Virus record (IMG/VR): IMGVR_UViG_3300024059_000003
Coordinates: 1 to 64,000 of that record
Source of the DNA: a virus
DNA length: 64,000 nt
Strand: one strand, 5' to 3'
The translations under genes and the position numbers were made by a program. Positions 4,572-53,258 of this stretch are shown piece after piece. The notes beneath the pieces are model-generated. The model was not told the origin of the DNA, made no database searches, and worked only from the letters and a program-made list of their open reading frames with translations. How positions within the stretch are numbered: position 1 is the first letter of the stretch; each line of letters starts with the position of its first letter.

Positions 4572-4967
4572 TTAATGTACTATCTTAAGGAAGTCTCCTG
4601 TACGATATACCTGACCTACGGTTAGTCCAGCGAATATAGCAGCTGAATTATTAGAGTGCTCAGGAGCACCTGTTATAGGTACAGTTAAGAGTACTTCCCA
4701 ATCAGAAGCTGTTCCAGCAAGATTAGCAATGTAGACTTTCCCACTTGTTGCACTTTGATCAATGTGTATTTTTCCTACATAAGGTGCAGGACTTACAGGC
4801 GTAGATGTGTTAAACGAAGGAACTAAGTTCTTATCAATGCTTCCTAGGATGTTTTCTAAGTTATCTCCAGGGTTTACTACTGCATTGGGTAAGTAGGGGC
4901 CATTGTATATAATGCATTCTGCATTTTGATAAACAGCACATGTGGGACAAATTTCAGCGGTTCTCAT
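4572..4967 (-). CDS. Small fibre-associated protein with shared N-terminal domain
   Basis: 131 residues. The N-terminus (CIIYNGPYLP...NPGDNLENILGSID) matches the N-terminal domain of the adjacent collagen-like fibre and of the proteins at 45139-45450 and 45462-46601. The C-terminus (GLTVGQVYRTGDFLKIVH) resembles an ending I recall from phage virion proteins in which GLxVGxxYRTGDxLKIVH closes the chain. There is no signal peptide or membrane segment. It lies 19 nt upstream of the fibre start and has its own promoter-like box 7 nt before the ATG. A short fibre or fibre-tip protein is likely; the biochemical role is unknown. Confidence 0.82.
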   Translation of the reverse strand: MRTAEICPTCAVYQNAECIIYNGPYLPNAVVNPGDNLENILGSIDKNLVPSFNTSTPVSPAPYVGKIHIDQSATSGKVYIANLAGTASDWEVLLTVPITGAPEHSNNSAAIFAGLTVGQVYRTGDFLKIVH

Positions 4968-35000: not shown

Positions 35001-38000
35001 TCTATAAAGAATGGTAGTTTGGTTTTAAAAGCAAATCTAGATATAAATATGTCTCCACCAAATATTGTATCTGTTCCTGAAGCTGTAACAAGTTTTTGAT
35101 AACCAGTGTCAATTCTTTGAAATGAGTTTAACTGACCCCATTGATTAGGAATAATATTCTTCATAGAAGCATAGTAGGAAACAACTTTTGTACCTTGCTC
35201 TTTTTCAGGAGTATCACATGCTCCAGACTCTCCTATGTTAAACCTTGAATATTCTATTATACTTGGTTCACCGTCTGTACCTATTAAACTATTTGTATTT
35301 TGTGGTAGAGGTAATGCTAATATATTATCATCAATCTTAGTATCAATAAATACAGAAGATTCTCTGTTCCAGTTATTTATAGGCGACTGGTTATTATTAA
35401 AAGATTGTACACCTGGTATAAGGTATCTTGTAAGTTCTATTTCTCTTTGTTTGATACCACCTTTCGTATTATTGTTGATAGGAAAATGATAATCATAGTT
35501 TGCTCTTGAGTTGAAAGACATTGCATAATTCCTTCTTGTAATACCATTTATATATATAGTAAGATAGGATTGGTATACTGTAAACATTATACCAGCATTA
35601 AATCCTGAACCCATAGAAGCCACTCTCTCAGCACTGTTTAACGCATCTTCTTGAGCTTCTTTACTTAGAAGTTTGTACTTAGCATTGTCTTTAACTTCTA
35701 CAAAGTGAGCCTTTCCTGCTCCAAACATTACACTTTCTAACTTAAGTACGCTACCTAGAAAAGGTTGACCAAATGACGTATCAGGAGAGTTGAATATTTG
35801 TTTAGATAAAATATCTTTTACTTCTTCATAGTCTGAATCATCTAATGGAGTAATAGGAATATCTCTGTTACATCTTAAACAAGATCTTCTGCTCCATCTA
35901 CTGTCAGTACCATTCAAGTCGCCACCACCATTGTTATTAATATTTGTAGCAGGAGTAAAAGTATTTTTTGAATTTGTAGGTGGAGGAAAGTTTGTAATAC
36001 TATCAATCGATGGTAGAGGATTTGTAGGTTGCCCAAAAGCAGGGGCTGGCCAAGGTGTAAGTTCTTCTGGGTTTTCTGTTTTTATACATGAGTCACAAGC
36101 TGTACCAGCACTATCAGTTTGACAAGGATAATTAGGATCAAAACTCCCAGGAGGATATTCGATTATTGGATCACTATAATTAAACTCATCAGTTGAATCT
36201 GGTAACGGTTCTCCAAAACAATTACCTGCTCTTATTGCATTTAAATCAATTCTAGGTTTCTCACAACAACCTCCTGTATCTGTAATGCCTGGTTTATTAA
36301 TATGACCACTTCCACTTATAGTGGTAGTTCCGCCTATTGGAGGACTAAGTTCTGGATCAATATTAGTAATAACAGTACAAGTTTCTCTACCAAACCAACC
36401 AGTGGCATTAAGAAACCTTTTGTTGTAAACTGTTCCGTCAAAATTAAAATTATTAAATGGATTTTGCCATTCGATTGCCCACCCAGACAATATACCAAAG
36501 AGCCCCCTTCCATGATCCCCTCGCCACACATCAAAGTCTGCTGGTCCTATAGTCATTACTCCCTTTAGTGCAACTGGTCTAGTAAGAGAACACACTTCTA
36601 CAATACAATTAGGCTGGATTTTTCTTTGTGTTGGTCTACCGTTGTCAATACTTACATACTGAAACACACCTTCATCTTCCTGTACAGAAATCTCTATGTT
36701 AAACCCTGGAAAGATTTGTCTTGTATCTTGATCTGAATAATATATTAACCATGGTTTAGAATCAATATTCCAAGCATTGTTGTTTTCCTGTAAAAAAGAG
36801 TCTTCTCCAGATACTTGATTATATGGATAGTTAGGATAGTAGTACTCTTGATCTTGTCTAGAATATTTACCTACATTTCTAAGAATACCTTTTGCTATTA
36901 CTGATTTGTTTGTACCACGGTCCCCTCTTACTATTTTAAATGCTACAATATCATCTTTCTGTTCTTGAGTAAGCTTAGAAGCTGCTATTAGTCCTGTTAT
37001 TTGAGTATTGTTAATCTTAACTCCTATAGGATAGATAGCATCAGAGTCTTGCATCGTGGGTACAATACTAGTACCTTCATAAACAATCTGTGGATTTTCT
37101 ACAATAGCACTTACTAATACATCTGGAAACTTATGATGTCGTATAGGTGTATCTGCAAGGCTTCCCCACAACTCAGTATTACATGGATACTTTTCAGTAG
37201 ATTCCCAGTATGCAAAGTTTCCGTATTCAAAAGGTCCTTTATAATTAGCATCTCCATTATACTCAGGTGAAAATCCTAAGTTTGTAGCATTGTTATATAT
37301 CTTCCAATAAGGACTATAACCAATACCACTTTCAAAGTAATCAGGTTCTCCAATAAAGTCATCATTGGTATTAGCAACATCCGGTTGAGGGTTTAGATTA
37401 AGTGGGCCTGGTATGTGAAATGAGTCTGTCTGTTTTCCATTTCTTAAAAGAAATACTATTTCAAATGCATACACTTCATCACGCATGTATCCACGATAAT
37501 TAGTAGCATTCAATTCATCACTATAGTCTTCTCCAGGTGGGAGTCTATGTGTTTCCCATTGTAATGTTATTTGACTAGCAATATTCTGATAATTAATTCT
37601 ATCTACAGAAGCTAAGTCACTCCATATCAGTGTGTCTTGTGCAGAAGTTATATCCTTGGCTACATCATAATATGGATACTTCTCAAAAATATCTGCAATA
37701 GATAATTGTATAGGATTTGCATCTGCACCAGTATATGTAATTATCTGTTGATCTTCAGTAATGTTATATGTACCTACTAACTCTACAGAGGTTATATCAT
37801 TAATAGTTTTTATTACTGCTAAATTGAAGTAGTTATATTGTCCTGATAAGTCCAGGTTTGATACTCTTACTTCTATTGATTTACCTACTGGATAGTTAAA
37901 GTTTACTGTTGTGTTTAACGGATCAGCAATAGGTGTAGGGTTAGTAACTGAATAGTAAGAAGTAAGATCGCTACCAGCTGCATCTGAATACTGTACAGCA

Positions 38001-38683
38001 AATTGATATGTTCCAGCAACCAGTGAGCCTACGTTTAGTATATCGTTTACTTCTAAAAAAGGTATGTCGAAATTAGGTTGTATCTTAAGTTGATTACAAT
38101 CCAATTGATCAGTATATACAGGATCACATCCAGGGTCTGAGTTAGGATCAATAACATATGGAATGTTATCTATATCTAAATATCTCCTAGCATTAAATCC
38201 ATCTGTCCAGTATATCTCTGTACTGCAATTTGTTATTCTATGCACTACTTTATGTATAGGATAATCTATACTAAAGTTTAAACAAGGAGCATTTACTAAT
38301 GTTTGATATTGACAATCATTATTAAACATGAAGCCAATTTCACTATCACCAGTTAAAGGGTTTGTTAGAAAGAATATGTTTTTCTTTTTCTCTGGAATTG
38401 TATATTTTCCAATGAGTTCGTACCCATCAGGAAAACTTAAACAAGGCTCATTACCAGGTTCATTTTGATAGTTGACTGAACTAGAATCAAAGTTCTCTAT
38501 AGTAGCATTCAATGCATAGGTAAGACTTCCTGTCTTTACTTGATTGATAGTGCTATCCATGTTAAGACCAGTAGTAGCTTGATTATATTCAAGTCTAACT
38601 TGGCCTTTCTGAGCTTTGTCATCTTTTTGAGCAGCAGCAGCTTTTTTAGCTTTTGCGTCTTCCATTTCTTTTCTAGTAGCCAT
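32021..38683 (-). CDS. Tail muzzle/nozzle-like protein with threonine-linked extension
   Basis: 2220 residues. The position after the ring proteins, the size, and the N-terminal pattern (TGLNMDSTINQVKTGSLTYALNA, IFFLTNP) fit the muzzle or stabilisation protein of crAss-like tails, analogous to P22 gp10 and T7 gp12 nozzles. After about residue 1700 the sequence changes style: two TTTTTT blocks around 1705-1722, TTTTT near 1885, and a TT/ST-rich linker at about 2143-2165 separate small domains. One insert (LYAWDGSVFKKWNINT, VVEIDTTTGATTV) looks like a beta-propeller and resembles the protein at 50484-53258. The extension may place accessory binding domains at the tail tip. The muzzle assignment is inferred from order and size. 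Confidence 0.82.
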   Translation of the reverse strand: MATRKEMEDAKAKKAAAAQKDDKAQKGQVRLEYNQATTGLNMDSTINQVKTGSLTYALNATIENFDSSSVNYQNEPGNEPCLSFPDGYELIGKYTIPEKKKNIFFLTNPLTGDSEIGFMFNNDCQYQTLVNAPCLNFSIDYPIHKVVHRITNCSTEIYWTDGFNARRYLDIDNIPYVIDPNSDPGCDPVYTDQLDCNQLKIQPNFDIPFLEVNDILNVGSLVAGTYQFAVQYSDAAGSDLTSYYSVTNPTPIADPLNTTVNFNYPVGKSIEVRVSNLDLSGQYNYFNLAVIKTINDITSVELVGTYNITEDQQIITYTGADANPIQLSIADIFEKYPYYDVAKDITSAQDTLIWSDLASVDRINYQNIASQITLQWETHRLPPGEDYSDELNATNYRGYMRDEVYAFEIVFLLRNGKQTDSFHIPGPLNLNPQPDVANTNDDFIGEPDYFESGIGYSPYWKIYNNATNLGFSPEYNGDANYKGPFEYGNFAYWESTEKYPCNTELWGSLADTPIRHHKFPDVLVSAIVENPQIVYEGTSIVPTMQDSDAIYPIGVKINNTQITGLIAASKLTQEQKDDIVAFKIVRGDRGTNKSVIAKGILRNVGKYSRQDQEYYYPNYPYNQVSGEDSFLQENNNAWNIDSKPWLIYYSDQDTRQIFPGFNIEISVQEDEGVFQYVSIDNGRPTQRKIQPNCIVEVCSLTRPVALKGVMTIGPADFDVWRGDHGRGLFGILSGWAIEWQNPFNNFNFDGTVYNKRFLNATGWFGRETCTVITNIDPELSPPIGGTTTISGSGHINKPGITDTGGCCEKPRIDLNAIRAGNCFGEPLPDSTDEFNYSDPIIEYPPGSFDPNYPCQTDSAGTACDSCIKTENPEELTPWPAPAFGQPTNPLPSIDSITNFPPPTNSKNTFTPATNINNNGGGDLNGTDSRWSRRSCLRCNRDIPITPLDDSDYEEVKDILSKQIFNSPDTSFGQPFLGSVLKLESVMFGAGKAHFVEVKDNAKYKLLSKEAQEDALNSAERVASMGSGFNAGIMFTVYQSYLTIYINGITRRNYAMSFNSRANYDYHFPINNNTKGGIKQREIELTRYLIPGVQSFNNNQSPINNWNRESSVFIDTKIDDNILALPLPQNTNSLIGTDGEPSIIEYSRFNIGESGACDTPEKEQGTKVVSYYASMKNIIPNQWGQLNSFQRIDTGYQKLVTASGTDTIFGGDIFISRFAFKTKLPFFIDNRVEAPDDSDIFFDELGNVAYPKYWHSARSILDNYQVTSGNNAPQNMFNLISTKAHNLDCPSDPSVYTSGSDNPIAGTYRSFYNGYMYLWAYGIPNFYCESVYNTDLRQAFNTKEGDFWPHVSSGIPDDWLQETNVPIAQDNTYYYNVTFSKQNKENVFSQLPPDWIAECYTFFPFRAIYSDTQGDSADNRVNNWLVYRALSYHDFPQNYGNLTSLDGMMDKAVLARFENKALLYNKLLTIDTSNPQAAYIGNPRLFDGAPPIDFAETDLGYVGSQNKFLLKVPYGAVTADAKRGQIFLMAGSKVIDMTKFGSGVNRFMTSHLPFEILEYFPDVYTDNHFNGIGLHGVYDNRFDRVIITKLDYIPINDDVKYDSVNKKFYVTVGETEQEQEVYLFDREYFCNKSWTMSFDFSTRSWISFHSYLPNFYIGENNFYYSGINNCCTQFTAVLETPDRSEIGEETPQLEGWFGEVEPEELITTTTTTSSDPLFTTTTTTGYVPDCDLDISILEEINCNIDGVGYITVPSPTTTTICNRPDGLGTDLFTEGYMIKGGSPILGKDSSANACAVAASLKNAALVDFDGQPDPSSEIGAIDFPFQYTQSSDTEFGITTITYMGTDGDCTFVSDGWYTRASDGYSTAYYVNAGSILEEQDCDCSTLTTTTTAFTGTLDECCGFIYNDDLGNALVSNQNQGTQEGENYWKTLYIPGYSSGKLAVGPNTLYAWDGSVFKKWNINTTNWDAEPEPDVTVSGFATTAGVVVKDDNTLIALETSLGNVVEIDTTTGATTVKFALPLGYIFTTNLLYTTSGKLITIGDDGAGTFHYFQWDYDNAVIPPEVDITITSSEFVGPVRAIYECNCDVIIISDGNTVNQAMFQLTTLSPFDIIYIGPATNESGDDKIWDAYSITNITQQQSCISPAGGITTSTTSTTEFTTTTSTTSIYPCYKWEVTGPIVVWYDDCSGLPQSLSVPSGSTQQYCTKESSGAEGTLIGPCDI

Positions 38684-42461: not shown

Positions 42462-42494
42462 AAGTTCTCTAAAACCAACAAAAGAGAACTTTTT
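42462..42494. other. Second inverted repeat, AAGTTCTCT / AGAGAACTT
   Basis: A perfect 9-bp inverted repeat (42462-42470 and 42483-42491) with a 12-nt loop directly beside the GC-rich hairpin, overlapping the stop of the 223-residue gene by two bases. Its T run lies on the plus strand, where no gene is present, so it may act with the neighbouring hairpin or protect the 3' end of the mRNA. Confidence 0.5.
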
Positions 42495-43164
42495 ATTCTA
42501 TCTCAACATCACTTCCACAACATGCGTCATAGATCCATGAAAACTCAAAGTCTACTCCAGACGATCCTACCCACTCAAGATCTTCAATAACACATGGGTT
42601 TATTAATGTATTCCCTGATATCTCGTAGTTGCGTATTGATAATGTACCTTGATTATCGTTTCCATTATTTTGTGTGTTTATCATTTGTACAGTGTTTCTT
42701 AGAGTTATTATATCTGGATCAAAAAAGAACAACTGCATGTTGCTCAAGGGACAAGGAAAGTCTGGTTCAGTTATCACTAACGGTGTATTGCTAGCAATAA
42801 ATATCGATCCTACTTGAGCATCTTGATTTAGATCTAAATTCCCTATTAAGCTCCCATTTAGAAATACATCAAAATTGTCATCCCTGGATGCGTTTTCATT
42901 ACAAACCTGAAAGACAGTGACATTATTTGGACAATTTGGAGCTGCGTCTAGTTCTTTATCTATATAAGTATTACAGTCAGGACTATTAGATATAATTCTA
43001 ACTACAGCAGTTCCAAAAGGAACGTTATATGAAACAAATCCTGCAAGTAGTTGATTACTTGTTACATCTATTTCAAAAGCTTCAGTAAAACCATCAACCT
43101 GAGAAAACAAGTTAAAAGGTCCAGCATCTGCTCCTATGTTACTAGCTTGTATTAGTATTGCCAT
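42493..43164 (-). CDS. Adaptor-domain protein (GPFDLYS family)
   Basis: 223 residues. The N-terminal ~70 residues (ASNIGADAGPFNLFSQVDGF...LLAGFVSYNVPFGTAVVRI...CNTYID) are the GPFDLYS-type domain. The remainder contains VFLNGSLIGNLDLN and an ending (WVGSSGVDFEFSWIYD-AC) like the small cargo domain of the 380-residue paralogue. There is no threonine stalk. It is the last gene of the fibre cluster, just before the hairpin pair. Likely a virion surface or tail-fibre component; target unknown. Confidence 0.78.
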   Translation of the reverse strand: MAILIQASNIGADAGPFNLFSQVDGFTEAFEIDVTSNQLLAGFVSYNVPFGTAVVRIISNSPDCNTYIDKELDAAPNCPNNVTVFQVCNENASRDDNFDVFLNGSLIGNLDLNQDAQVGSIFIASNTPLVITEPDFPCPLSNMQLFFFDPDIITLRNTVQMINTQNNGNDNQGTLSIRNYEISGNTLINPCVIEDLEWVGSSGVDFEFSWIYDACCGSDVEIE

Positions 43165-43175
43165 TTTATATTTTT

Positions 43176-43727
43176 TTAGGATACAGAAGGACTACAAAGA
43201 GTAGTACAACATAAAACTTCATATCCATTTAAAGCTATCTGAACTGCTGCTACACTTGTGTTAGTTGTACTCGGTCCTATTTTATACCACCCTGCATCCA
43301 ATGCTAATAGACTTGCTGTTGCTGGGTCTGGATCATCATATAAAAAAGACCCAACAGGTGGAATATAATTAAAACTATCACCATTGTGCCAGTACTCAGT
43401 TACCGGTGTTGTAGATATATCTGAACATGCATCTGTAGCATTATTATGAGGTGCTGGAGCACCAAAAAGTCCAAATCCAGATGTATACTGTGAAACAATT
43501 GATGCTTCAACATAATTATCACAGTTAGCATTATTATTTTTTATTCTCACAATAGTAGTTCCAGTAGGAACAAGACTTGTAGATATGTTATAACCTAATG
43601 TACTTGTTAGAATAGTTATAGAAACATTCGTAGCAAAGGGCGTTGTATAAAAATTTGCATTTGAATATAGATCAACTGGTCCTGAACAACTGCCTGCGGA
43701 TTCTAGTTTTATTGTTAGTGTTGCCAT
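43176..43727 (-). CDS. Adaptor-domain protein (GPFDLYS family)
   Basis: 183 residues with the ATG at 43727 (MATLTIKLESAGSCSGPVDLYS). An ATG at 43757 is rejected because it overlaps the previous gene and lies outside the family alignment. The N-terminal domain runs to about residue 70 and ends with NCDNYVE. The C-terminal part (ACSDISTTPVTEYWHNG...GSFLYDD...DAGWYKIG) matches a small repeated domain seen in other proteins of this cluster: Cys near the start, Trp or Tyr plus Asn-Gly, GWY, final Cys. Probably a surface-exposed virion protein. Confidence 0.78.
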   Translation of the reverse strand: MATLTIKLESAGSCSGPVDLYSNANFYTTPFATNVSITILTSTLGYNISTSLVPTGTTIVRIKNNNANCDNYVEASIVSQYTSGFGLFGAPAPHNNATDACSDISTTPVTEYWHNGDSFNYIPPVGSFLYDDPDPATASLLALDAGWYKIGPSTTNTSVAAVQIALNGYEVLCCTTLCSPSVS

Positions 43728-43741
43728 TTTATAATTTTGTT

Positions 43742-44884
43742 TTATGGATCTGGACAATCCTCAACGTTAGTAATACGTCCATTTGTATCAATTTTTATAA
43801 GCCAACTTCCTGGATTGGGTGTAGATAGAGACAGTTGAAACCTGTACCATTTGTTGTCTCCGTTAAATGTTTGAGATGCTGGAAATATTACATCATATGT
43901 AAAATCATTTATTTGTGGTTCAACAAGTGATCCATTTTTCCATAGGAATGCAGCAAGGTCAGCACTACATAAACCAATATTTAGATTTGAACTACTAGTT
44001 ATTGATCTTATACCAGCTGCAAGAGATGGACTAGATTTTGTAGTAGTAGTTGTCGTAAGTGGAATTTGAGTTGTTGTAGTACCAGTAAGTGTTATAGTAG
44101 GATTATTTAAGGAACAATCACATGTAGTAGTAGTAGTTGTTGTTGAAGAAGAGCTGGTACTGGTTGTAGTGCTAGTAGAACTAGTAGAACTAGTAGTTGT
44201 TGTTGTAACTTCTTTATAAGTGTCAGCTATAAAGGAGAAGTCTACATCAACCCCTGCTCCAGTATAATTAGGACTTAGGGCAGTTACAAAATTATCAGTA
44301 CAGAAAGTACATATATCCTGTCCTTGATATAGTATTCCGTCTTTTTGAATTGTATTGATAAAATTGTAAACTCCTGTTCTGTTACTATCTATTGTAGCAG
44401 AAACTACATCTCCTGGTAAGATTTGAATAGTTCCACTTTGTGAAGATGCATTACCTGTAATAGTTGCATCTACAACATTATTTCCATTAACATCTATTTT
44501 TAAGTTGCTGCTCTGTGGTTCTGGTGCAATTAAAGAATTTGGAGTATTAGTTATAAGCTCCCAGTTAAGTCTGTTAGGAGGCTGTTGTGTTGTAGTGGTT
44601 GATGTAGATGTTGAAGTACTTGTAGTAGTTGACGTACTAGAACTACTTGTTGTAGTTGTTGTAGGACAATTAGTTGGTAGGTCAATACAATTATCACATG
44701 TACCAACAGAGCAGACTCTTATAATAGTTGCTCCTGTAGGAAGTTCAATAACATATCCATTAGTTAAAGTTAAAGCAGGAACTTGTGTTTGAAATGGAGT
44801 AGTATATCCATTTGCATCTGAGTATAAATCAAAAGGTCCAGCAGAGCCTCCTGGGGGTATGGTTATGTTTATTTGTATCAACAT
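43742..44884 (-). CDS. Adaptor plus threonine-linked cargo domains
   Basis: 380 residues. The order is: GPFDLYS-type N-terminal domain (1-75, GGSAGPFDLYSDANGYTTPF); Ser/Thr linker (about 76-100); a small beta domain (LNWELI...SSNLKIDVNG...PGDVVSATI, about 105-215); a second Ser/Thr linker (about 218-285); and a C-terminal domain with CSADLAAFLWKNG and KWYRFQ, ending in VEDC. The middle domain closely resembles one near the C-terminus of the trypsin-like protein at 46626-50474. No catalytic residues were seen. It is a clear example of the stalk-and-cargo architecture. Confidence 0.82.
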   Translation of the reverse strand: MLIQINITIPPGGSAGPFDLYSDANGYTTPFQTQVPALTLTNGYVIELPTGATIIRVCSVGTCDNCIDLPTNCPTTTTTSSSSTSTTTSTSTSTSTTTTQQPPNRLNWELITNTPNSLIAPEPQSSNLKIDVNGNNVVDATITGNASSQSGTIQILPGDVVSATIDSNRTGVYNFINTIQKDGILYQGQDICTFCTDNFVTALSPNYTGAGVDVDFSFIADTYKEVTTTTTSSTSSTSTTTSTSSSSTTTTTTTCDCSLNNPTITLTGTTTTQIPLTTTTTTKSSPSLAAGIRSITSSSNLNIGLCSADLAAFLWKNGSLVEPQINDFTYDVIFPASQTFNGDNKWYRFQLSLSTPNPGSWLIKIDTNGRITNVEDCPDP

Positions 44885-44887
44885 ATC

Positions 44888-45139
44888 TTATGGTGTTGTT
44901 GTTGTTGTGGTAGTTGTAGTTTGTTCTAATACAATATCAAAACTATTTTCACATAATGAATCTGACGTTACTCTTATTATAGTAGTAAAATCAGGAACTA
45001 CAGTACTAGTATAGCCAGCTAATAAATTAACTTTAGTTACACCAGTTTCAAAAGCAGCAGTGAACCCATCTACATCTGAGAACAGATCGAAGGGTCCAGT
45101 ATTGTTTCCTGCAGTTGTTAGTTTAATAAATGCTTCCAT
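44888..45139 (-). CDS. Stand-alone GPFDLYS adaptor ending in poly-threonine
   Basis: 83 residues with the ATG at 45139 (MEAFIKLTTAGNNTGPFDLFS), which overlaps the previous stop as TAATG; an ATG at 45154 is less likely. It consists only of the N-terminal adaptor domain (DVDGFTAAFETGVTKVNLLAGY) and then nine threonines, a proline and a stop. Paralogues continue from such a linker into a cargo domain, so this looks like an adaptor that has lost its cargo or works as a bare plug. Confidence 0.78.
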   Translation of the reverse strand: MEAFIKLTTAGNNTGPFDLFSDVDGFTAAFETGVTKVNLLAGYTSTVVPDFTTIIRVTSDSLCENSFDIVLEQTTTTTTTTTP

Positions 45140-45450
45140 TATGATCCGCAACAAGTATTTAGTGTGTTATTTATATTTATAACTTGCTCTTTTATAGCAG
45201 AAATATCTGATGTATTAGTTGCTTGTTGAGTCTTCAATATACAAAGAAGTTCGTCAATTTTAGACAAAGCAACGTTTAAATCATCACAAGGTTCTACATT
45301 AGAACAAGGTAATATTGGTCCATTGTATGTAATAGATTTTGAATAATGTATTCCAGTTTGACATGGATCATTACTTACAGAAGTAGAACAACCACAAGTA
45401 GTGTTCACTGCTATATTTGTACAACAAGGATTAGTGGGTAAGTATGCCAT
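45139..45450 (-). CDS. Small protein with fibre N-terminal domain and coiled coil
   Basis: 103 residues. A Cys-rich start (NPCCTNIAVNTTCGCS) is followed by SITYNGPILP...EPCDDLNVALSKIDELLC, the domain shared with the collagen-like fibre and two others. The end is a short coiled coil (DISAIKEQVININNTLN). It may be a minimal fibre base or an assembly partner for larger fibres. Translationally coupled to the next gene by TAATG. Confidence 0.75.
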   Translation of the reverse strand: MAYLPTNPCCTNIAVNTTCGCSTSVSNDPCQTGIHYSKSITYNGPILPCSNVEPCDDLNVALSKIDELLCILKTQQATNTSDISAIKEQVININNTLNTCCGS

Positions 45451-45461
45451 TGTTTTTAGTA

Positions 45462-46601
45462 TTAAGGTATGTAAATTATATAATATGATCCAATTCCAGG
45501 TTGATAATTATTATGTGGTAATCCTCCACCAGTAGGATTTATTGTAACAGTTGTAGCTACAGTTTGACTAACATCAGTAGTTTTTCCTACAGTAGATGTA
45601 GTACTTGTTCCTCTAAGTGCATATCCTAAGTTACCACCTGTGCCTTTTGCCTGGCGAATATAGTTACTGCTTGTAGGAGGATCTGTTTCATTTGAACTTC
45701 CCATACTTGCAACAAGGTGGCTGTGAGAAGCTGGACTAAGTGAAGCTGCTACAGTATTAGTGTGTGTATGTGAAGGTATTTGTGCTGTTGTTAATACAAC
45801 TTGATTTGTTCCAGTAAGGTCATTTAGGTTATATGTAGGATTTCCACTAACAGACGGATCAACTATGTTATCCATACTTTGACCTGGCATATCAGTAGCT
45901 CCAACAGCTACTCTTCCTCTCATATCTGGTGTACCATTGTTTCCATTACATAGAAATATTCTATCCCAAATACCTATTCCTGCACCTGATGCATCAAATG
46001 GTGTTAAGTCTCCAAAGTATGGCTGTGCAGAAAATGGAACCATTCGATTACTAATAAGCTGTTGCTGAGGATTAGTGTTTAAATAGTTTTCTATATACGT
46101 ATTAATATCAACAATTTGTACGTAGTTGTTTGTAACATCAGTAATAAAAGTGTTCAGTGACTGCTCAACTTCACACAACTTATTTATAGTTTGTTGTAAT
46201 ACATCTGATGTGCTTGTAGTATCTGTTACTCCAGATACACAGCCTACATCATAGTTTACAACTCTTGATCCTGAACCACCTTCTATCTCACTTACTTCTT
46301 CCTGTAATTTACAGATAGTTTTGATTATACCTACTAGGTAGTTATTTAAAGTTAATGGGTTACAGTCATCTAGATTAGCCTGCACTGCAGGGCATATATC
46401 TGATGGGGGAACTACAGGTGTTATACCTGTTCCGTCTAGTGTAGATCCTAAAAAGGTAATAAGAGCTTGCTCCACAAATGATAGGGAGTCTCCATTCTTT
46501 ATTCCTAGTATAGGAACGTCTACACCTGTATATTTAACGCACTTGTCTGAAGTAATTTCAGTACATCCGTTATAACAATTTGAGCAATTTTGTGTTGACA
46601 T
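45462..46601 (-). CDS. Tail-collar domain fibre protein
   Basis: 379 residues. The N-terminal ~60 residues (CVKYTGVDVPILGIKNGDSLSFVEQAL) are a divergent copy of the shared fibre domain. A helical middle follows (VLQQTINKLCEVEQSLN). From about residue 187 to the end is a phage tail collar domain: WDRIFLCNGNNGTPDMRGRV, then PSHTHTNTV near residue 276, and HNNYQPGIGSYYIIYIP at the C-terminus. Such domains form fibre tips or short tail fibres. Its start codon is in frame with the TAG stop of the preceding protease gene, 24 nt downstream of it. Confidence 0.87.
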   Translation of the reverse strand: MSTQNCSNCYNGCTEITSDKCVKYTGVDVPILGIKNGDSLSFVEQALITFLGSTLDGTGITPVVPPSDICPAVQANLDDCNPLTLNNYLVGIIKTICKLQEEVSEIEGGSGSRVVNYDVGCVSGVTDTTSTSDVLQQTINKLCEVEQSLNTFITDVTNNYVQIVDINTYIENYLNTNPQQQLISNRMVPFSAQPYFGDLTPFDASGAGIGIWDRIFLCNGNNGTPDMRGRVAVGATDMPGQSMDNIVDPSVSGNPTYNLNDLTGTNQVVLTTAQIPSHTHTNTVAASLSPASHSHLVASMGSSNETDPPTSSNYIRQAKGTGGNLGYALRGTSTTSTVGKTTDVSQTVATTVTINPTGGGLPHNNYQPGIGSYYIIYIP

Positions 46602-46625
46602 AATTTTATTTATTTGTTTATCACA

Positions 46626-49600
46626 CTATGGTGATGTTTGTGTTGCGTTTAGAGAAATAGCACCTGTTCCTGTTACTGTAAAGTTTCCAGCTACTGGACC
46701 TATTACTGTTTGAGCAGCTCCAGTAGCGACATCACTAAAACTAGTAAATCCACTAACTTGAAGACCACTTACTGTTAAAGTGTCATTTTGTCCTGGGTTA
46801 AGTGATTTATAAGTTGCTAGTAGGTCATAATTCTCTCCGTTTACTAAAGTAAAGTTGTAAGTTCCATTACTGCTTGGATCAGCAAGATAAGTCTCCGAAA
46901 ACTGGCCGTTTTCACCGTCAAGAGTTACAAAGTTAGTTCCGTCTCCAGTGTCATCAAAGTCTATTATAAGACTTGCAGGTGTAGTTGCAGTACTAATAGT
47001 ATCATAATTCCAAACACTATTACTTACACCTGTTTGAGTCCAGTTGTTAAATACATATGTATAGTTACTAGATGCAGATACAAGACTTTTTTGAATTGTA
47101 GGTGTAGTAGGTGCTACACTAGTAAATAGTTTGTGTTCAACAAAAAGAGTATCGCTTGTTAAATTTTCAGTTGTCATTGTTGCACTAATAACGTCACCTA
47201 TTGCTGTCATTATTGTGCCACCGTCTGATGTATTAGTTTTGTTTATAACAGAATTTACAACTGCTACGCTATTAACTAATATCTTAAGATTCGCACTCTC
47301 AAATAGACCTGCTCCACTTGGATTACTCTTACCACTAAACACCCAATTAAATGCATACTGTTTAGGATCAGCAGTGGTAGTTGTTGTAGTTGTTGGTACT
47401 GCAGTGGTGGTAGTTGTTGTTGTCGTAGGTGCTACAGTGGTGGTAGTTGTAGTTGTTGGTGCTACAGTAGTTGTTGTAGTTGTCGTGGGTGCTACAGTTG
47501 TTGTAGTAGTTGTTGTTGGAGCAACAGTTGTAGTTGTTGTTGTTGTAGGTGCTACAGTTGTAGTTGTTGTTGTTGTTGGTGTTGTACAATCTCCAAATGC
47601 AGTAACTTTATAACTATCTCCAGTTGTATGATCAAAGGTAGAAAGTATTGATGATAAGTCATTACCATTTGCATCTATCTTTGAAAATTGGAATGCATTT
47701 GTAGATGATAACGGACCTGAAGAAGCGTTACTGCTAACTTTACCATAAGGAACAGTAACTGCTCCAACTCCAACATCAACAAGTTGATACACTGCTGTAT
47801 AGTCTACTCCTCCTATATTAAATACTACATCATAGTTGGTATTTGGAACTTGAGACCAGTTGGTATAACTTGTTGTGTTTGTAGTTGGTCCAACGAAAGA
47901 TGATCGAGCATATAGAGAGGGGGTATTCACACCTACAGGACTTGGTGGGTCTGTATACCAGAAGCTATTATCTGTAGTAGTTAAATAGTCAAACTCTAGA
48001 CATCCAACTAATGGTGCAAGAGTTGTTGTTGTAGTTGTAGTAGGTGTTACCGTTGTGGTTGTAGTTGTTGTTGGTGCCACTGTAGTTGTAGTAGTGGTAG
48101 TAGGAGCAACAGTTGTTGTAGTTGTAGTTGTTGGTGTTGTACCAGTTGCTGCAACAGCACAACCAGTACCAGATCCTGAGTTACTATATCCTGAAGGAAC
48201 AATAAATGCAAGCGTATAAGAAACTGTTCCAGCAATATATACAGTTGTAATACCCCCACTATAATTGTAACTAGTTATAGCTAGATTGAGTCCATCATAT
48301 ACAACACTTCCATTCAGTGGATCTCCTACAATTCCATCAGGTAAAGATACTGTTAGTAGTGGATCTGTACAAAGGAAAACAGGTAAGGTTGTGGTTGTTG
48401 TAGTTGTAGGAGCTACAGTAGTTGTTGTAGTTGTAGTAGTAGGAGCTACAGTTGTGGTTGTAGTAGTAGTAGGTGCTACAGTAGTTGTGGTTGTAGTAGT
48501 TGTATTTTGATCATCTGGACATAGATAAAAATCAAGAATACAACCTGCTAACCTAGCTCCTATATGTGTAAATGTTAGTTCATTAATTCTATCACCATTG
48601 TTTTTAGGGAATATATTAAATAAACCACGATTTCCTATATCTCCTGCATAAAGCCTTCCTTTAAATATCACACTACCATCTGTCTCATTAGAAACTATAA
48701 AACTATCAGCATTTTCTCTACACACCTGTATAAATTCTATATTAAGATCTACGTCAGCTGTTACTCTTACTGTTTCATATATTCCTGGATTAGGATAATA
48801 CCCTATACCAGTACAGAAAAATGCTATAGACGATATTGAGTTATCAAATGACATTGTGGATGAAGAACAAGATCCACTACCTAATGCATAACGCCCTTTA
48901 TTATTATATTGCCTATTGCTGAAACCAATCAAGTCACAAGTTCCAATTCCTTCATTATTGGGAATAAGTTCTGGAGCTGGACCTGGAACATACGTAGCAC
49001 CACAATCACCACTTGATGATGTCAAAGTTAAGATAGTCCCATTACTTAATGTTTTAGTTCCATTTCCAGTACTAATTCCTGGGAATCCCTCTGGAGCATC
49101 AAAGTCATAAGGTTGGCTACATCCACTAGAAGGAGTTAAAGTAGTACTAGTAGTAGTTGTAGTATTACCACCACAATTAGCTTCTAGTGAACCTGTAAAT
49201 CCTACTTGCCAGTACGCTTCACTTTCACAATATATTATTTTCTGGTCACTTTGTCCATCTATAGTTATATACTCAATTGTATCTGGATCTACTAGTGGAC
49301 CAGGAGTAATAAACTGCTGTATACCCATTTGTTCTGCAACCATATCTATTCTACAGGCATAACCATATAGATAACAACCAGCTACCACTTGAGCTCCACC
49401 AGCATAACATAGTCCTATTATCTTGATAGTTCCATTTATATCTGCGAGGAGGAATGATCCTGAATCTCCTGAATATATAGGATTACAACAATATTCTGTT
49501 GTACTCGCATTATCAGGATCTTCTTGAGGAGGTTTAATAAATCTAATAGCATCAGTAAACTTACAATTTACACTAGTTGCTTGTGAACTAGGATAAGCTA

Positions 49601-50474
49601 TATTTTCAAGCGTAGCACCTATTGATTGAATTAACATAGGACAATCTGGTACAATACCTTTAGGTCCAGTAGTTCTTCCAGTACTATATACACGAGGGTT
49701 TGTAGCTAATAGATTATCTATTTCTAATGTAGAAGCAAACGGTGGTGGGTTACTACCTAGTATAGACTCTAGTCCTACTTGATTCCATGCAATTGTTGGA
49801 TTCCATCTTGTCGGATCAATAGAAATTATAGCTGCATCTACCTGATTAAGTAAACCTGTAGACTTTGCATGAATAGGAACATACTGTAAACTTACACCAC
49901 AGTTATAACTTGCAGGTTTGGATGCACTTCCACCTTCTCCTTGTTGGTATACATAATCTACTGGACTATATTCATTTACAAGAGCTCCAGTAACACTTCT
50001 ATCAGATGTATAAAATGCATCTTGAATAGTAACGTGATTATTTGTTAAACCAACTGAACAGCCTGTTTCTGAATGTATAACTACACCTCCAAGAGTACCT
50101 ACACTAGTTCCATTATTTCTACTAGAAAAAGAAATACCACCTTGTAAATGTTGAAAGAACTGTCTGTTTGCTAGTGAAGTGTTATTTGTTTGTCCACAAG
50201 TTGTAGAACACGTACCTATAACTTCATGCTTCGCTATTTCTATTACATCTGTTTTTATACTTTTTCCAGATACTATAACACGTGATGGAATATGTTCATT
50301 TATTGAAATCTCAGAAAGAGGCTTCTTTTTTTCTACAGCTATAACTATAGCAAAGTCACCTGTCCACGTTCCATTAACAACTTTTCTTCCCCAAGCAACA
50401 CTAGTTACATTAGGAAGTTGCTGAGACAACTCTAATATTCTATCTTTTATTTCTTGTGTTAATAGTCCTTTCAT
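46626..50474 (-). CDS. Trypsin-like serine protease on threonine stalks
   Basis: 1282 residues ending in TAG. The N-terminal ~400 residues form a chymotrypsin-fold peptidase: H147 in GLTNNHV, D213 in LLNQVDAAII, S338 in YSGDSGS, with GGAQVVAGC after the serine. The pattern is closest to Nal1-like trypsin peptidases. A short Thr linker near 440 leads to a Cys-containing beta domain. Then VAPTTTTTTT-type arrays at about 656-695, 781-821 and 965-1035 separate further small beta domains. The last ~245 residues include SANLKILVN...GDVISATM, a domain shared with the 380-residue adaptor protein. There is no secretion signal, consistent with a virion component. It could cut host surface proteins, act in fibre maturation, or be only a scaffold. 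Confidence 0.85.
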   Translation of the reverse strand: MKGLLTQEIKDRILELSQQLPNVTSVAWGRKVVNGTWTGDFAIVIAVEKKKPLSEISINEHIPSRVIVSGKSIKTDVIEIAKHEVIGTCSTTCGQTNNTSLANRQFFQHLQGGISFSSRNNGTSVGTLGGVVIHSETGCSVGLTNNHVTIQDAFYTSDRSVTGALVNEYSPVDYVYQQGEGGSASKPASYNCGVSLQYVPIHAKSTGLLNQVDAAIISIDPTRWNPTIAWNQVGLESILGSNPPPFASTLEIDNLLATNPRVYSTGRTTGPKGIVPDCPMLIQSIGATLENIAYPSSQATSVNCKFTDAIRFIKPPQEDPDNASTTEYCCNPIYSGDSGSFLLADINGTIKIIGLCYAGGAQVVAGCYLYGYACRIDMVAEQMGIQQFITPGPLVDPDTIEYITIDGQSDQKIIYCESEAYWQVGFTGSLEANCGGNTTTTTSTTLTPSSGCSQPYDFDAPEGFPGISTGNGTKTLSNGTILTLTSSSGDCGATYVPGPAPELIPNNEGIGTCDLIGFSNRQYNNKGRYALGSGSCSSSTMSFDNSISSIAFFCTGIGYYPNPGIYETVRVTADVDLNIEFIQVCRENADSFIVSNETDGSVIFKGRLYAGDIGNRGLFNIFPKNNGDRINELTFTHIGARLAGCILDFYLCPDDQNTTTTTTTTVAPTTTTTTTVAPTTTTTTTTVAPTTTTTTTLPVFLCTDPLLTVSLPDGIVGDPLNGSVVYDGLNLAITSYNYSGGITTVYIAGTVSYTLAFIVPSGYSNSGSGTGCAVAATGTTPTTTTTTTVAPTTTTTTTVAPTTTTTTTVTPTTTTTTTLAPLVGCLEFDYLTTTDNSFWYTDPPSPVGVNTPSLYARSSFVGPTTNTTSYTNWSQVPNTNYDVVFNIGGVDYTAVYQLVDVGVGAVTVPYGKVSSNASSGPLSSTNAFQFSKIDANGNDLSSILSTFDHTTGDSYKVTAFGDCTTPTTTTTTTVAPTTTTTTTVAPTTTTTTTVAPTTTTTTTVAPTTTTTTTVAPTTTTTTTTAVPTTTTTTTADPKQYAFNWVFSGKSNPSGAGLFESANLKILVNSVAVVNSVINKTNTSDGGTIMTAIGDVISATMTTENLTSDTLFVEHKLFTSVAPTTPTIQKSLVSASSNYTYVFNNWTQTGVSNSVWNYDTISTATTPASLIIDFDDTGDGTNFVTLDGENGQFSETYLADPSSNGTYNFTLVNGENYDLLATYKSLNPGQNDTLTVSGLQVSGFTSFSDVATGAAQTVIGPVAGNFTVTGTGAISLNATQTSP
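47370..47583 (-). repeat. Poly-threonine linker array 1
   Basis: About 70 residues made of near-exact VAPTTTTTTT units (ten residues, 30 nt) plus AVPTTTTTTT. Threonine codons mix ACT, ACA and ACC between units. Confidence 0.9.
48013..48135 (-). repeat. Poly-threonine linker array 2
   Basis: About 40 residues of TTTTTTT blocks separated by VAP, VTP and LAP, between two small domains of the trypsin-like protein. Confidence 0.88.
48390..48508 (-). repeat. Poly-threonine linker array 3
   Basis: About 40 residues of TTTTTTT blocks separated by VAP, between two small domains of the trypsin-like protein. Confidence 0.88.
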
Positions 50475-50483
50475 ATCTATGTG

Positions 50484-53258
50484 TTATGCTGGTACTGACC
50501 CTGCACTAAATTTAGTAAATATTGTTCTTACACCAGGCGTAGATGTAGTAGTGGTAGTTGTTGTTGATATATCAGGATCTGTTGTAGTAGTGGTAGTTGT
50601 ACCAACTATAGCAAATCCATCATTTGTTCTACATAATGGTAAACTTCCTGAACTTCCACCAAAGTATTCAGATTCGTTTGCTACTTCTTCCCAAACATGT
50701 GTTTGTAGATTAACTCTATATAATCTATAAAATCTAAAAACTCCTTCTGTATTACTACCTAAAGTTACATATAAATAATCATCAACTACAGCCATGTCTC
50801 CACCACTGTTCCAATTACCAACTGGTCCTGGAATCTCTACTTCTAGATTACCTGTGTCATAATCAAACTGAGCAAGTATATATGGTTGAGTTCCATAATC
50901 AGATTTGACTGCTATAAATTTATTTGGTGTTCCATCTTCTTTAAGGGTAACCACATGTTCACCAGAACCATTAAATGGTTCAGGTATAAGGAATTTAAGT
51001 GTAACTGCTAATGTTGTAGATCCCTCTACAAATTCAGCTTCAAACACTTGTTGACCTCCTCCATCAAAGGAAGAGATACCGTACGATAGTACCATTAAGT
51101 TGTCATTAACCGTACTTACTCCAAAGTAAGTAGGAGGAAATATATTAGGTAACTCACTTTGATTTATAGTATAAAGTATACCCTCCCATGTAAAGTTTGA
51201 AGGTGTACCACTTGGTAATGTGGTATCATAACTCCATCTTGTAAATTGTGAAATTGCATCTCCTTCTGCATCTTTATTGTTAACTTGACCAATAAAATAA
51301 TTATTAGTAATATCTGAATTAGGTAGTTGGAAATAGCTACCTCCTGGAAGAGCAATTTCCTCTATGGTATTTGTTACAATATTTTGTGAATAAACTCTAT
51401 TATAGCTTCCCTTCAAATTCTCAGGGGCACATATTCCATCACTACAGCTCTCTGTAACGTTACGAGTAAATATTCTTGAGCAACTTAAAGGAGGAGTGAC
51501 ACAACCAAGCAGAATTGGTCCCCCAGTTGGTGCATTACCGGATATAGTTATAACAGTAAAGTTGGTAGGAGTTGTTACAATAAACTCTCCATCACCTTCT
51601 GTATTGTAATCTGGCACACCTCCACCTATTCTATTTCCTTGTACTTGTACATTACATCCATTACTTATTGATATAGAAGGTGTTCCTGCATTTGTAGTAA
51701 TTTCATAAACGTCCCCAGCACTAAAGTCAGGTTGAGTATTAAGTACAGCAGCTCTAATAGGAAGATTATTAATAGGACTTTCAAAAGTTAGAGTAATATT
51801 AAAATCATTACCTTGAACAGTTTTTAACTTATTAGTTGCAGCTGGATTAGATAATCCACTACATCCGCCATTAGGCACACCTCCAACTGGATCTCCTGGT
51901 AGTAATGCTAAGTAGTTATCGTCAGCAGTAGCTGTAACCTGAATTCCCTGATATGTAAAAGTAACAGGCCCAATGTAGAAGAGGTTATTTCTATCATCTC
52001 GTTCAGTTAGTGCAGGTATCCAAGTAGCCTCACAATCAGGATCTGTTAATTTAATACCAACATTTGCACAACCAGTTGATGTATGTATCCAAACACTATC
52101 GTCAGCCACTGTAGTTTCTAATGTAGCATTATATGGTGCTGTTTGACTTATGTTATATACTTCAAGTGTTTCTGGTTGAATTACTTGTATTAATCCATTT
52201 ACACCCCATACAGGCATAGCTTTAGTTGAACCAGTCCATGTAGATGTAAATTCAGGAACACCAGAATTCTGTAAGTTGATTATAGGAGTGAGAGGATTTG
52301 GCGACCAACTACCAGAAGAAGGTAAACCTGGATATTGTTTAATTCGATTTGAGGCATTGAAATCACTTTGGTTTTCATAATATCTACTAGAAAGAATAAC
52401 ATCACCATCATTAGTAATAAACATACCTGTAAGCTCTGTTGTGTGTCCAGAGGCATTACCAAAGCTAACAGTGGCTTCATCACTATTATTAGATTCAGTT
52501 AATTCAATATCTCCAACTGTAGAAATGTCCCATTCGTAAACACCCATAGCAACATTTCCATTAAATCTATCACTAAACCCTACAAGTAATGTGTTATTAT
52601 CAGAGGTTGTAGCTATTGTAGATATTTTAGTTCCCCATATACTTTTGTAATTAAGTGAACTTACAGCAATCGTTATTTCTCTAACATAAGATAAAGTTGG
52701 TACAGGACCAGATATAACTATGTCCCACTCTCTAATGTATGCCACTGTATTATCAGTTGTAACACTAGCCAACCATAACTTATCTTCTGTAGAGCAGATA
52801 GGTCTGTTGATTCCTACAGTAGTTGTAAAGTCATTAGGTACAAGCACAGGACTTGAGGAATTAGTATTAAAGTCATATACAGCTATTTCTCCAGGGTTAC
52901 CTCCATAAGTTGACCATGTACATGGTGAGAATGCTGGATAATTAGTACTTGTTGTAGTACTTGTTGATGATGACGTGGTTGTTGTTGTTGTAACATCACA
53001 AAGAATAGATCCAGAAAAATCGCAATTTGGTATAGCACAAGAATAAATATCTGTTGTATTAGGTGTACACAATGCACCTAAGTCCAACAGTCTAACAGTT
53101 ATAGTTCCATCAGGGGCTAATGATGTTTCATACCCAGACAATAGATCCGCTTTAGTCACACCTGTCTCAAATGGAGTAGTAAACCCATCTACGTTCGAGT
53201 ATAGATCAAAAGGACCTGTATCTGCACCTGCAAAACTTAATGTTATTATTATTGTCAT
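50484..53258 (-). CDS. Adaptor-domain protein with beta-propeller-like cargo and threonine linkers
   Basis: 924 residues. The N-terminal GPFDLYS domain (FAGADTGPFDLYSNVDGFTT) ends near residue 80 and is followed by a Thr/Ser linker at about 88-105. The large middle has repeated strands with WDI, YEWDIST and similar motifs. Near the C-terminus, RFYRLYRVNLQTHVWEEV suggests a beta-propeller like that in the muzzle extension. The end has two TTTTTTT linkers and a short tail (RTIFTKFSAGSVPA). Located between the trypsin-like gene (9-nt gap) and the vWA-like gene. A binding role at the virion surface is likely; the ligand is unknown. Confidence 0.8.
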   Translation of the reverse strand: MTIIITLSFAGADTGPFDLYSNVDGFTTPFETGVTKADLLSGYETSLAPDGTITVRLLDLGALCTPNTTDIYSCAIPNCDFSGSILCDVTTTTTTSSSTSTTTSTNYPAFSPCTWSTYGGNPGEIAVYDFNTNSSSPVLVPNDFTTTVGINRPICSTEDKLWLASVTTDNTVAYIREWDIVISGPVPTLSYVREITIAVSSLNYKSIWGTKISTIATTSDNNTLLVGFSDRFNGNVAMGVYEWDISTVGDIELTESNNSDEATVSFGNASGHTTELTGMFITNDGDVILSSRYYENQSDFNASNRIKQYPGLPSSGSWSPNPLTPIINLQNSGVPEFTSTWTGSTKAMPVWGVNGLIQVIQPETLEVYNISQTAPYNATLETTVADDSVWIHTSTGCANVGIKLTDPDCEATWIPALTERDDRNNLFYIGPVTFTYQGIQVTATADDNYLALLPGDPVGGVPNGGCSGLSNPAATNKLKTVQGNDFNITLTFESPINNLPIRAAVLNTQPDFSAGDVYEITTNAGTPSISISNGCNVQVQGNRIGGGVPDYNTEGDGEFIVTTPTNFTVITISGNAPTGGPILLGCVTPPLSCSRIFTRNVTESCSDGICAPENLKGSYNRVYSQNIVTNTIEEIALPGGSYFQLPNSDITNNYFIGQVNNKDAEGDAISQFTRWSYDTTLPSGTPSNFTWEGILYTINQSELPNIFPPTYFGVSTVNDNLMVLSYGISSFDGGGQQVFEAEFVEGSTTLAVTLKFLIPEPFNGSGEHVVTLKEDGTPNKFIAVKSDYGTQPYILAQFDYDTGNLEVEIPGPVGNWNSGGDMAVVDDYLYVTLGSNTEGVFRFYRLYRVNLQTHVWEEVANESEYFGGSSGSLPLCRTNDGFAIVGTTTTTTTDPDISTTTTTTTSTPGVRTIFTKFSAGSVPA

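Follow-up and report, generated by a model that had tools for sequence, protein, structure and literature searches.

Six virion proteins of a crAss-like phage open with the same domain of about 70 residues, for which we use the working name GPF. This raises the question of where on the particle such a domain would dock, and what it would hold there. The phage record (IMGVR_UViG_3300024059_000003) has 76,268 bases and contains the window, i.e. the 64,000 nucleotides analysed here, as well as the six GPF copies. A profile search of the whole record gave a count of six at E values up to 0.001. The six open reading frames (ORFs) listed by a first-pass annotation were confirmed at their coordinates, all on the minus strand; 43176-43727 and 44888-45139 start at internal ATGs within slightly longer frames. 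The copies are listed below with their E values in the GPF (A2) profile search.

31809..32018, minus strand: GPF, muzzle type, N-terminus of the 288-residue protein 31152-32018; E 6.7e-16
42955..43164, minus strand: GPF, plug type, of 42493-43164; E 5.0e-27; about 150 residues of cargo after it
43497..43727, minus strand: GPF, plug type, of 43176-43727; E 1.4e-24; about 106 residues of cargo after it
44675..44884, minus strand: GPF, plug type, of 43742-44884; E 2.7e-26; 310 residues after it, made of Thr/Ser linkers and cargo
44930..45139, minus strand: GPF, plug type, bare protein 44888-45139; E 8.9e-33; Thr tail
53043..53258, minus strand: GPF, plug type, of 50484-53258; E 1.2e-30; Thr/Ser linkers, then cargo

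The domain common to six proteins

The proposal that the six proteins have one N-terminal domain in common is borne out by hidden Markov models (HMMs) and by the relatives of the sixth copy. Five copies (42493-43164, 43176-43727, 43742-44884, 44888-45139 and 50484-53258) gave shuffle Z scores of 14.7 to 26.1 over their ten pairs. Leave-one-out HMMs recovered all five at E values of 1.6e-15 to 9e-27, the search space being the window's 416 stop-to-stop frames of at least 40 residues. For the sixth copy, 31152-32018, pairwise Z scores were 3.3 to 7.5, weak by themselves, and a search from the other five gave an E value of 0.0015 among the 416 frames and 0.03 among 8,700 frames. Chance likeness was ruled out by the reverse search. 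An HMM built only from the protein's own 290-residue family retrieved 47 outside ORFs at E ≤1e-6 (best 1.5e-10), including the window copy 44888-45139 at 4.7e-8. Low complexity was also ruled out, since GPF precedes the Thr/Ser runs and the leave-one-out HMMs work.

The literal motif GPF(D/N)L(Y/F)S is present in four of the six proteins but not in 43176-43727 (GPVDLYS) or 31152-32018 (GPFTITD); one Gly is kept in all 241 distinct GPF rows. Of the 233 rows that have a residue in the column of the Cys expected near the domain end, 98% have the Cys, which stands before the last strand. In 187 of the 241 rows it is present with no other Cys at earlier model columns. The predicted fold is a small Ig/Fn3-like sandwich, as judged from the AF2 model of 44888-45139 (mean pLDDT 84.9, pTM 0.70). 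When the whole 288-residue protein was modelled, pLDDT was 80-94 over residues 1-70 and below 50 over residues 86-288, the muzzle-C body described below. The order of strands and helices was the same in these two separate models.

When 66 GPF members were scanned, no convincing match was obtained in Pfam, PHROGs or NCBIfam (best E values 0.016, 0.0052 and 0.0015, respectively), and each weakly matching family was hit by one or two members only, of unlike kinds. Searching solved structures by sequence gave no meaningful match for the muzzle or for GPF. Among the mostly open-access papers searched, no title or abstract opening mentioned a split crassvirus muzzle or a GPF-like domain. Using three tblastn queries (the window copy of 50484-53258, a second-clade copy and the whole protein 31152-32018), GPF was found in none of 50,697 deposited phage records; the 39 records matched by the whole protein aligned solely from residue 80 on. 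One pattern-limited scan of prokaryote genomes gave no GPF relative among 7 stretches, and a second gave one among 80, which proved to be a crassvirus contig inside a Tissierellales MAG (L170). At least 570 relatives were counted among unannotated proteins in one scan. By the scans made, GPF thus appears only in an uncultured crassvirus lineage.

A muzzle chain cut at one point

In crassviruses, passage through the tail is reported to be gated by the muzzle, a large and conserved protein; it is hexameric in crAss001, where disulphides are reported in the tail (PMC10172136). The window encodes it in pieces.

31152..31757, minus strand: muzzle C-terminal part (residues 88-288 of the 288-residue protein, plus stop), from tblastn matches at the 3′ ends of genes that encode intact muzzles
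32021..33615, minus strand: Thr-linked tail that closes muzzle chain 1 where the muzzle is cut (approximate boundary), without counterpart in intact muzzles
33616..38683, minus strand: muzzle N-terminal part, about residues 1-1690 of 2220, from Pfam crAss_MUZ and profile alignment to intact muzzles

ORF 32021-38683 matched PF25731 (crAss_MUZ) with an E value of 2.6e-31 and 109.1 bits, the cut-off being 27. Residues 80-288 of 31152-32018 matched by tblastn the muzzle gene ends of Fpv3 (2e-7), Lbo-JY46 (2e-18) and csAssE-Sib (5e-7); with phi4:1, tblastn gave just 0.9 and the profile 1.8e-6 among six proteins. In Fpv3, the matching part carries PF25729 (crAss_MUZ_C) at 1775-1884 (E 9.5e-10). This family matched two of the ten members of set A6, and the window protein had no match to it at E values up to 10. 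Judged from these alignments, 31152-32018 is GPF followed by the detached C-terminal 200 or so residues of a crassvirus muzzle, carried by a separate gene. That one GPF protein is part of the muzzle gives a first hint of where the attachment site may be.

As in the crassvirus muzzle (crAss001 gp44; PF25731, PF25729), both parts are present, in order and adjoining, and the preceding gene encodes a ring protein, just as gp43 precedes gp44 in crAss001. However, the muzzles of Fpv3, Lbo-JY46, csAssE-Sib, phi4:1 and crAss001 are single chains, whereas here a Thr-rich tail ends one piece and GPF opens the next. In csAssE-Sib and Fpv3, the muzzle-N and muzzle-C matches abut (2064/2065 and 1763/1765), with nothing between them corresponding to the window's chain-1 tail. 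The cut is less sharply defined in Lbo-JY46 and phi4:1, where the muzzle-N profile extends 67 and 42 residues, respectively, past the beginning of the muzzle-C match. On crAss001 gp44, the cut falls near residue 1236, in a stretch that reads like a beta-hairpin turn.

The same arrangement was observed among relatives. Muzzle-N and muzzle-C were never in one ORF among 99 muzzle-C ORFs, 98 of which carry GPF; the remaining one (L132) is cut by the locus edge. The muzzle-C ORF directly follows the muzzle-N ORF in 81 cases, in which the chain-1 tail measures 130-554 residues, and a plug-type GPF gene lies between the two halves in 12. Overall, this comparison of genes shows a predicted muzzle chain cut at one point, where chain 1 ends in a mostly Thr-rich tail with modules and chain 2 opens with GPF and then completes the muzzle. 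A second cut leaves the muzzle in three pieces in 11 loci, and the additional piece opens without GPF; GPF is therefore not needed for joining muzzle pieces.

The two muzzle genes nearly touch or overlap, as they would if programmed frameshifting produced one chain and there were no real split. We rejected this explanation as hardly credible, because the 81 adjacent pairs show all three frame relations (38, 25 and 18 pairs) and a whole gene separates the halves in the 12 loci mentioned above. We also considered that GPF is a domain already inside intact muzzles. Against this, the GPF profile found nothing in four intact-muzzle phage records, whereas it had hits in 37 of 37 records elsewhere, and a comparison with 15 crAss001 proteins gave no match either (best E 0.17). 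These few intact muzzles are a small control for the putative link between GPF and the split. A query with the Lbo-JY46 C-terminus found no intact-muzzle relatives in viral_contigs.

Placement of GPF and its exchangeable cargo

In the loci examined, GPF is single and N-terminal in all 326 domain-bearing ORFs and starts within 45 residues of the upstream stop in every one; it is never in tandem and never at the distal end. What follows differs among the proteins, as the first-pass annotation had noted, and parts are sometimes common to different proteins. Each genome carries one to five further GPF-headed proteins, some bare, others continued by a linker with exchangeable modules. Of 141 cargo-bearing plug-type ORFs, 122 have at least six Thr/Ser residues in a row within 60 residues of GPF. 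The cargo of 50484-53258 is Kelch/propeller-like, with a Kelch_6 E value of 1.9e-4 that stays under the curated cut-off. Distal modules were found on both muzzle tails and GPF proteins: one such pair (L062/L142) is 81% identical over 75 residues, and Fib_succ_major occurs on a muzzle tail and on a GPF protein (L133, L050). A single N-terminal domain followed by differing modules thus behaves as a constant base, the rest being exchangeable cargo.

Bare copies are frequent. Leaving aside muzzle-C ORFs, fewer than 40 residues follow the domain in 87 of 228 GPF ORFs (four of these reach the edge of their locus, a cut muzzle-type copy among them), which indicates that bare GPF is a normal state. 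Cargo is lacking in seven of 11 representative orthologues of 42493-43164 and in nine of 11 of 43176-43727, and Cys is absent from 12 of 68 distinct bare proteins. Such copies could be remnants if GPF were an aid to folding, solubility or packaging of late-protein N-termini without a role in the finished virion, and an exclusively N-terminal domain on otherwise unlike proteins would also agree with this. Nevertheless, bare copies recur at matching gene positions in the window clade's 28 other loci, and by the scans made GPF occurs in just one virus lineage, which makes the explanation very improbable.

Alternatively, GPF could itself be an adhesin and bind to the host surface as other phage Ig-like domains do, its N-terminal place being accidental. 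The predicted Ig/Fn3-like fold and the many bare copies agree with this, as does a weak fold likeness to the C-terminal domains of the Bacteroidota type IX secretion system (T9SS), described as small Ig-like sandwiches of about 75 residues (8gl8_D, 8glk_D, 8gl6_D; PMC11285876). Two comparisons with 8gl8_D gave Z 5.8 (rmsd 2.7, 66 aligned) and Z 6.2 (rmsd 2.4, 65 aligned), scores tied with those of Fn3 and other Ig-like domains. However, the T9SS domains sit C-terminally and have no sequence match to GPF. PF18962 had no match in the phage's own record, control genomes likewise staying under the cut-off, and was absent from the matches of the 66 GPF members at E up to 1. T9SS mimicry is kept as a weak lead only. 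An accidental position fits poorly with a domain that is single and N-terminal throughout, neither tandem nor distal, and that opens a muzzle chain in 98 of 99 cases; on balance, adhesion is a rather unlikely role.

Ackermannviridae TSP1-4 are described as having conserved N-terminal assembly domains (XD/TD) and variable C-terminal host-contact parts, and some complexes of this type include a member with structural domains only (PMC11414711). GPF genomes resemble this description by their constant N-terminal domain, variable C-terminal parts and several proteins per genome. In contrast to the XD domains as described there, GPF has about 70 residues, is Ig/Fn3-like by prediction and occurs once per protein; furthermore, one copy is joined to a structural protein of the tail tip. 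In crAss001, short N-terminal segments of gp21, gp22 and gp29 are described as anchoring head and tail fibres at fixed virion sites (PMC10172136). The search of 15 crAss001 proteins gave no sequence homology between these anchors and GPF.

Candidate docking at the tail tip

The notion of a shared plug for different cargoes is partly supported: constant base and exchangeable cargo were found, but one member is the muzzle C-terminal part and many copies are bare. The reading we prefer, at about even chances, is that GPF, with its Ig/Fn3-like fold, acts as a coupling domain at the tail tip and that plug copies dock at or near the muzzle. If the muzzle is a hexamer as in crAss001, six GPF domains would sit at fixed places on it. 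Plug-type GPF would assemble onto or next to muzzle GPF, either GPF to GPF or on an equivalent seat, and this assembly may be locked by a disulphide formed through the conserved Cys that precedes the last strand. Cargo modules would then project on Thr/Ser linkers and contact the host cell.

Gene order and phylogeny bear on this reading. Among 37 records searched, 31 contain the muzzle-C body, a muzzle-type copy and at least one plug-type copy; the other six contain plug-type copies only, and each of these records stops within 6.2 kb of the last copy. In a tree of 159 rows and just 70 columns, in which second-clade copies and cut window-clade contigs are pooled under the label 'B', muzzle and plug types lie on opposite sides of one branch (support 100/99). 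The 43176-43727 group is single, whereas the 44888-45139 and 42493-43164 groups are not single clades; nothing else was taken from this tree than the division into two types and the single group.

The two types may thus have diverged in function. Moreover, about 10 kb separate the plug genes from the muzzle-C gene in the window clade and in some of the second clade; in the window the distance is 10.5 kb, near the tail-fibre-like gene 45462-46601. Plug copies could therefore dock elsewhere on the virion, at the tail hub or collar or on the capsid, the muzzle copy being an old relative re-used at the cut. When 53283-55028 and 55147-55713 were compared with the crAss001 tail hub proteins gp38 and gp39, no significant match was obtained. 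Docking at another site is less probable than docking at the muzzle, given the plug gene between the muzzle halves in 12 loci and the modules common to plug proteins and muzzle tails, and we consider it somewhat unlikely.

Docking at or near the muzzle can be extended, tentatively, to a multi-chain adhesin hub. GPF would be a self-pairing Ig-like coupler, perhaps disulphide-locked; the muzzle would be cut at surface turns and retain six GPF sockets, next to which up to five further GPF-headed proteins would plug in, with distal modules mobile between muzzle tails and plugs. The gene data suggest that GPF could serve as a plug by which exchangeable host-contact modules are attached to the tail tip. 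In this uncultured lineage the muzzle consists of two or three chains, whose cut ends carry modules that are likely to contact the host, and the domain at the start of the last muzzle chain also heads as many as five other virion proteins. If GPF is a coupler, it indicates where host-range proteins attach in these viruses and provides a short, testable module for gain and loss of adhesins at the tail tip; its unannotated relatives could then be sorted by their first 70 residues.

Five uncharacterized proteins of Virus NIOZ-UU157, for which the BFVD listing gives no function or domain name, matched the GPF model with E values of 4.3e-7 to 1.7e-4. Their sizes resemble those of the window clade's proteins:

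A0A7S9XH99, 417 residues
A0A7S9STY0, 939 residues
A0A7S9SU37, 287 residues
A0A7S9SU94, 77 residues
A0A7S9XFL2, 77 residues

Copies and distribution of the GPF domain

Matches to the crassvirus major capsid protein (PF23898, E 3.7e-31), a P22-like portal (E 5.9e-12), ring protein 1 (PF24228, E 6.9e-8), ring protein 2 (PF25702, E 3.4e-20) and the tail-tip protein called muzzle (PF25731, E 2.6e-31) indicate that the window, a section of a 76,268-base virus record, derives from a crAss-like phage. The first-pass annotation had claimed that six of its proteins share an N-terminal domain of about 70 residues (GPF). All six were found in place. The genes concerned are:

31152-32018, minus strand: GPF, then the C-terminal part of the muzzle (muzzle-C)
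32021-38683, minus strand: N-terminal part of the muzzle (muzzle-N)
42493-43164: GPF protein
43176-43727: GPF protein
43742-44884: GPF protein
44888-45139: GPF protein
50484-53258: GPF protein

Five copies are homologous, each being recovered by a leave-one-out HMM (E 1.6e-15 to 9e-27). The copy opening 31152-32018 is distant from these five (E 0.0015 among 416 frames, 0.03 among 8,700). An HMM built from its family alone reaches 47 outside ORFs at E <=1e-6 and matches window copy 44888-45139 at E 4.7e-8, so its membership is upheld by this reverse search. No seventh copy was found in a profile search of the 76,268-base record.

Scanning viral contigs with GPF gave at least 570 relatives, and the best 80 loci were retained; searching with the muzzle-C body yielded 432 relatives, from which 80 loci were retained. 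The window and both locus sets contain 326 GPF ORFs (E <=1e-5) with one domain in each, always starting within the first 45 residues of the stop-to-stop frame and, in 318, close to a Met. Among 37 records searched whole, those of the window type hold six copies (five in three shorter ones, one in a cut record) and those of the second type hold two (three and four in two records, one in two short ones). The muzzle-C profile has exactly one match in 31 of the 37, and the same 31 hold a muzzle-type GPF, that is, a copy opening muzzle-C. The other six end at most 6.2 kb from their last plug-type copy (any other GPF) and may simply be cut. GPF was absent from 50,697 deposited phage records (tblastn, three queries). 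Two pattern-limited scans of prokaryote genomes found it only on one crassvirus contig within a Tissierellales MAG (L170, JACIXZ010000023.1), where it is probably misbinned.

An AlphaFold2 model from 66 sequences (mean pLDDT 84.9) shows three strands, a short helix and three strands, predicting an Ig/Fn3-like fold. The same order was obtained from a separate alignment for the first 70 residues of 31152-32018, beyond which pLDDT was below 50. The best solved-structure matches are tied with each other (Z 5.8 to 6.2) and include T9SS C-terminal domains and many Fn3 domains; a plain Foldseek search gave nothing at E <0.001. Bacteroidota T9SS domains recur among these best, non-significant matches (8gl8_D, 8glk_D, 8gl6_D, 8glj_D), the first two for both the 44888-45139 and 31152-32018 models. 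In a viral structure library, five Virus NIOZ-UU157 proteins match the GPF model (E 4.3e-7 to 1.7e-4). None of the 66 members has a convincing Pfam, PHROGs or NCBIfam match.

The turn preceding the last strand carries a conserved Cys (98% of the 233 distinct rows that have a residue at this position), without any other Cys at earlier model columns in 187 of 241 rows. The 68 distinct bare proteins, which have GPF but no cargo (a further part after the domain), contain exactly one Cys in 38 cases, none in 12, two in 12 and three in 6. Since disulphides between proteins are described as stabilising the crAss001 tail (PMC10172136), a disulphide lock may be guessed at.

Organisation of the muzzle genes

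Residues 80-288 of 31152-32018 match the extreme end of intact muzzle genes from Flavobacterium phage Fpv3, Lbo-JY46 and csAssE-Sib (annotated as muzzle), and weakly that of Cellulophaga phage phi4:1. Pfam crAss_MUZ_C maps within the matching part of the Fpv3 muzzle; the 31152-32018 protein itself has no Pfam match. The annotation was right about the shared domain in this protein, whose remainder is the muzzle end rather than a separate cargo. Both parts abut in the intact chains of csAssE-Sib (2064/2065) and Fpv3 (1763/1765). In Lbo-JY46 and phi4:1 the two matches overlap, the muzzle-N profile running 67 and 42 residues, respectively, past the start of the muzzle-C match. On crAss001 gp44, the muzzle of that phage, the junction falls near residue 1236, just ahead of a segment starting KMWEQF and between two stretches whose sequence suggests a beta-hairpin. 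The phage PP438436.1, whose intact muzzle is crassvirus-like, has the cyanobacterium Leptolyngbya boryana as its recorded host; since Bacteroidota are the described hosts of crassviruses, this entry deserves a check.

GPF opens 98 of 99 muzzle-C ORFs, the remaining one being cut by the locus edge, and none of the 99 also contains muzzle-N. Judged from these loci, the split is a stable trait. The muzzle-N ORF ends directly before muzzle-C in 81 loci, and a plug-type gene intervenes in 12, several of them near-copies. The other six are the window, also directly adjacent (gap 2 nt), three loci without upstream sequence and two with gaps of 245 and 530 nt. Programmed frameshifting as the rule joining the halves is ruled out, because all three frame relations occur among the 81 pairs (38, 25, 18). 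In loci with directly adjacent halves, an extra tail of 130-554 residues (median 504), containing Thr runs, closes the first chain; in loci with an intervening plug gene this tail tends to be shorter (23-376), which would fit tail and plug gene being alternative carriers, the second group being small.

A tree of 159 domains, built on few alignment columns, places the muzzle type (61 rows) on one side of a branch (100/99) and all others opposite. The 43176-43727 copies form one group (99/92). Not every other position-wise group holds together, partly because cut window-clade contigs carry the second-clade label; that of 44888-45139 falls in two places.

A second muzzle cut, near window-muzzle residue 1610-1620, occurs in 11 loci (L142, L133, L134, L141, L144, L148, L149, L162, L165, L169, L047), the next piece starting without GPF. 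Among five upstream pieces, those of L142, L133 and L162 carry Thr-linked modules, that of L169 a short Thr tail and that of L144 no such tail.

Cargoes and candidate docking at the muzzle

The claim that differing parts follow the shared domain was confirmed: the sequences show GPF as an N-terminal base that bears exchangeable ends. Cargo lengths were tabulated over all 29 window-clade loci, with 11 representatives. Cargo is present in all 11 for both 50484-53258 and 43742-44884, and absent in seven for 42493-43164. The 43176-43727 protein has cargo in the window and two near relatives; nine of 11 representative orthologues stop at the domain end. A Thr/Ser run of at least six lies within 60 residues of the domain in 122 of 141 cargo-bearing plug-type ORFs. 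Modules are also shared: one of 75 residues occurs at 81% identity in a GPF protein of L062 and in a muzzle tail of L142, Fib_succ_major (PF09603) is terminal on the L133 muzzle chain and on an L050 GPF protein, and the window protein 46626-50474 has a 159-residue stretch in common, at 76% identity, with the L025 relative of 50484-53258.

The evidence best supports an account in which GPF serves as a coupling domain, with one copy incorporated into the muzzle where it is cut and the others opening accessory proteins, often with likely host-contact modules. GPF-muzzle fusion, the gene between the halves and module sharing suggest that plugs dock at the muzzle. Three findings weigh against such docking: in the window clade the plug genes lie at a distance from the muzzle, many copies are bare, and in 11 loci the muzzle is cut a second time without GPF. 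Branched receptor-binding complexes are described as having shared N-terminal assembly domains and variable ends (PMC11414711). The literature searched showed no split muzzle that carries a domain of this kind on one of its parts.

Other features of the window

The segment SDVSGSMDD in 53283-55028, without Pfam match, resembles a von Willebrand A metal site; the GPF protein of L025 (9995-14302) has a VWA match just short of the cut-off (E 1e-4). Positions 1-4500 are GC-richer (0.446) and repeat-rich, and we would guess that their frames are the other reading frames of a gene for a collagen-like (Gly-X-Y) protein. The proteins 4572-4967, 45139-45450 and 45462-46601 seem to have a further N-terminal motif in common (Cys-rich, then Y.GP or YTG, then GD.L); by phmmer the first two match at E 1.7e-6, and the match to the third is weak (0.027).
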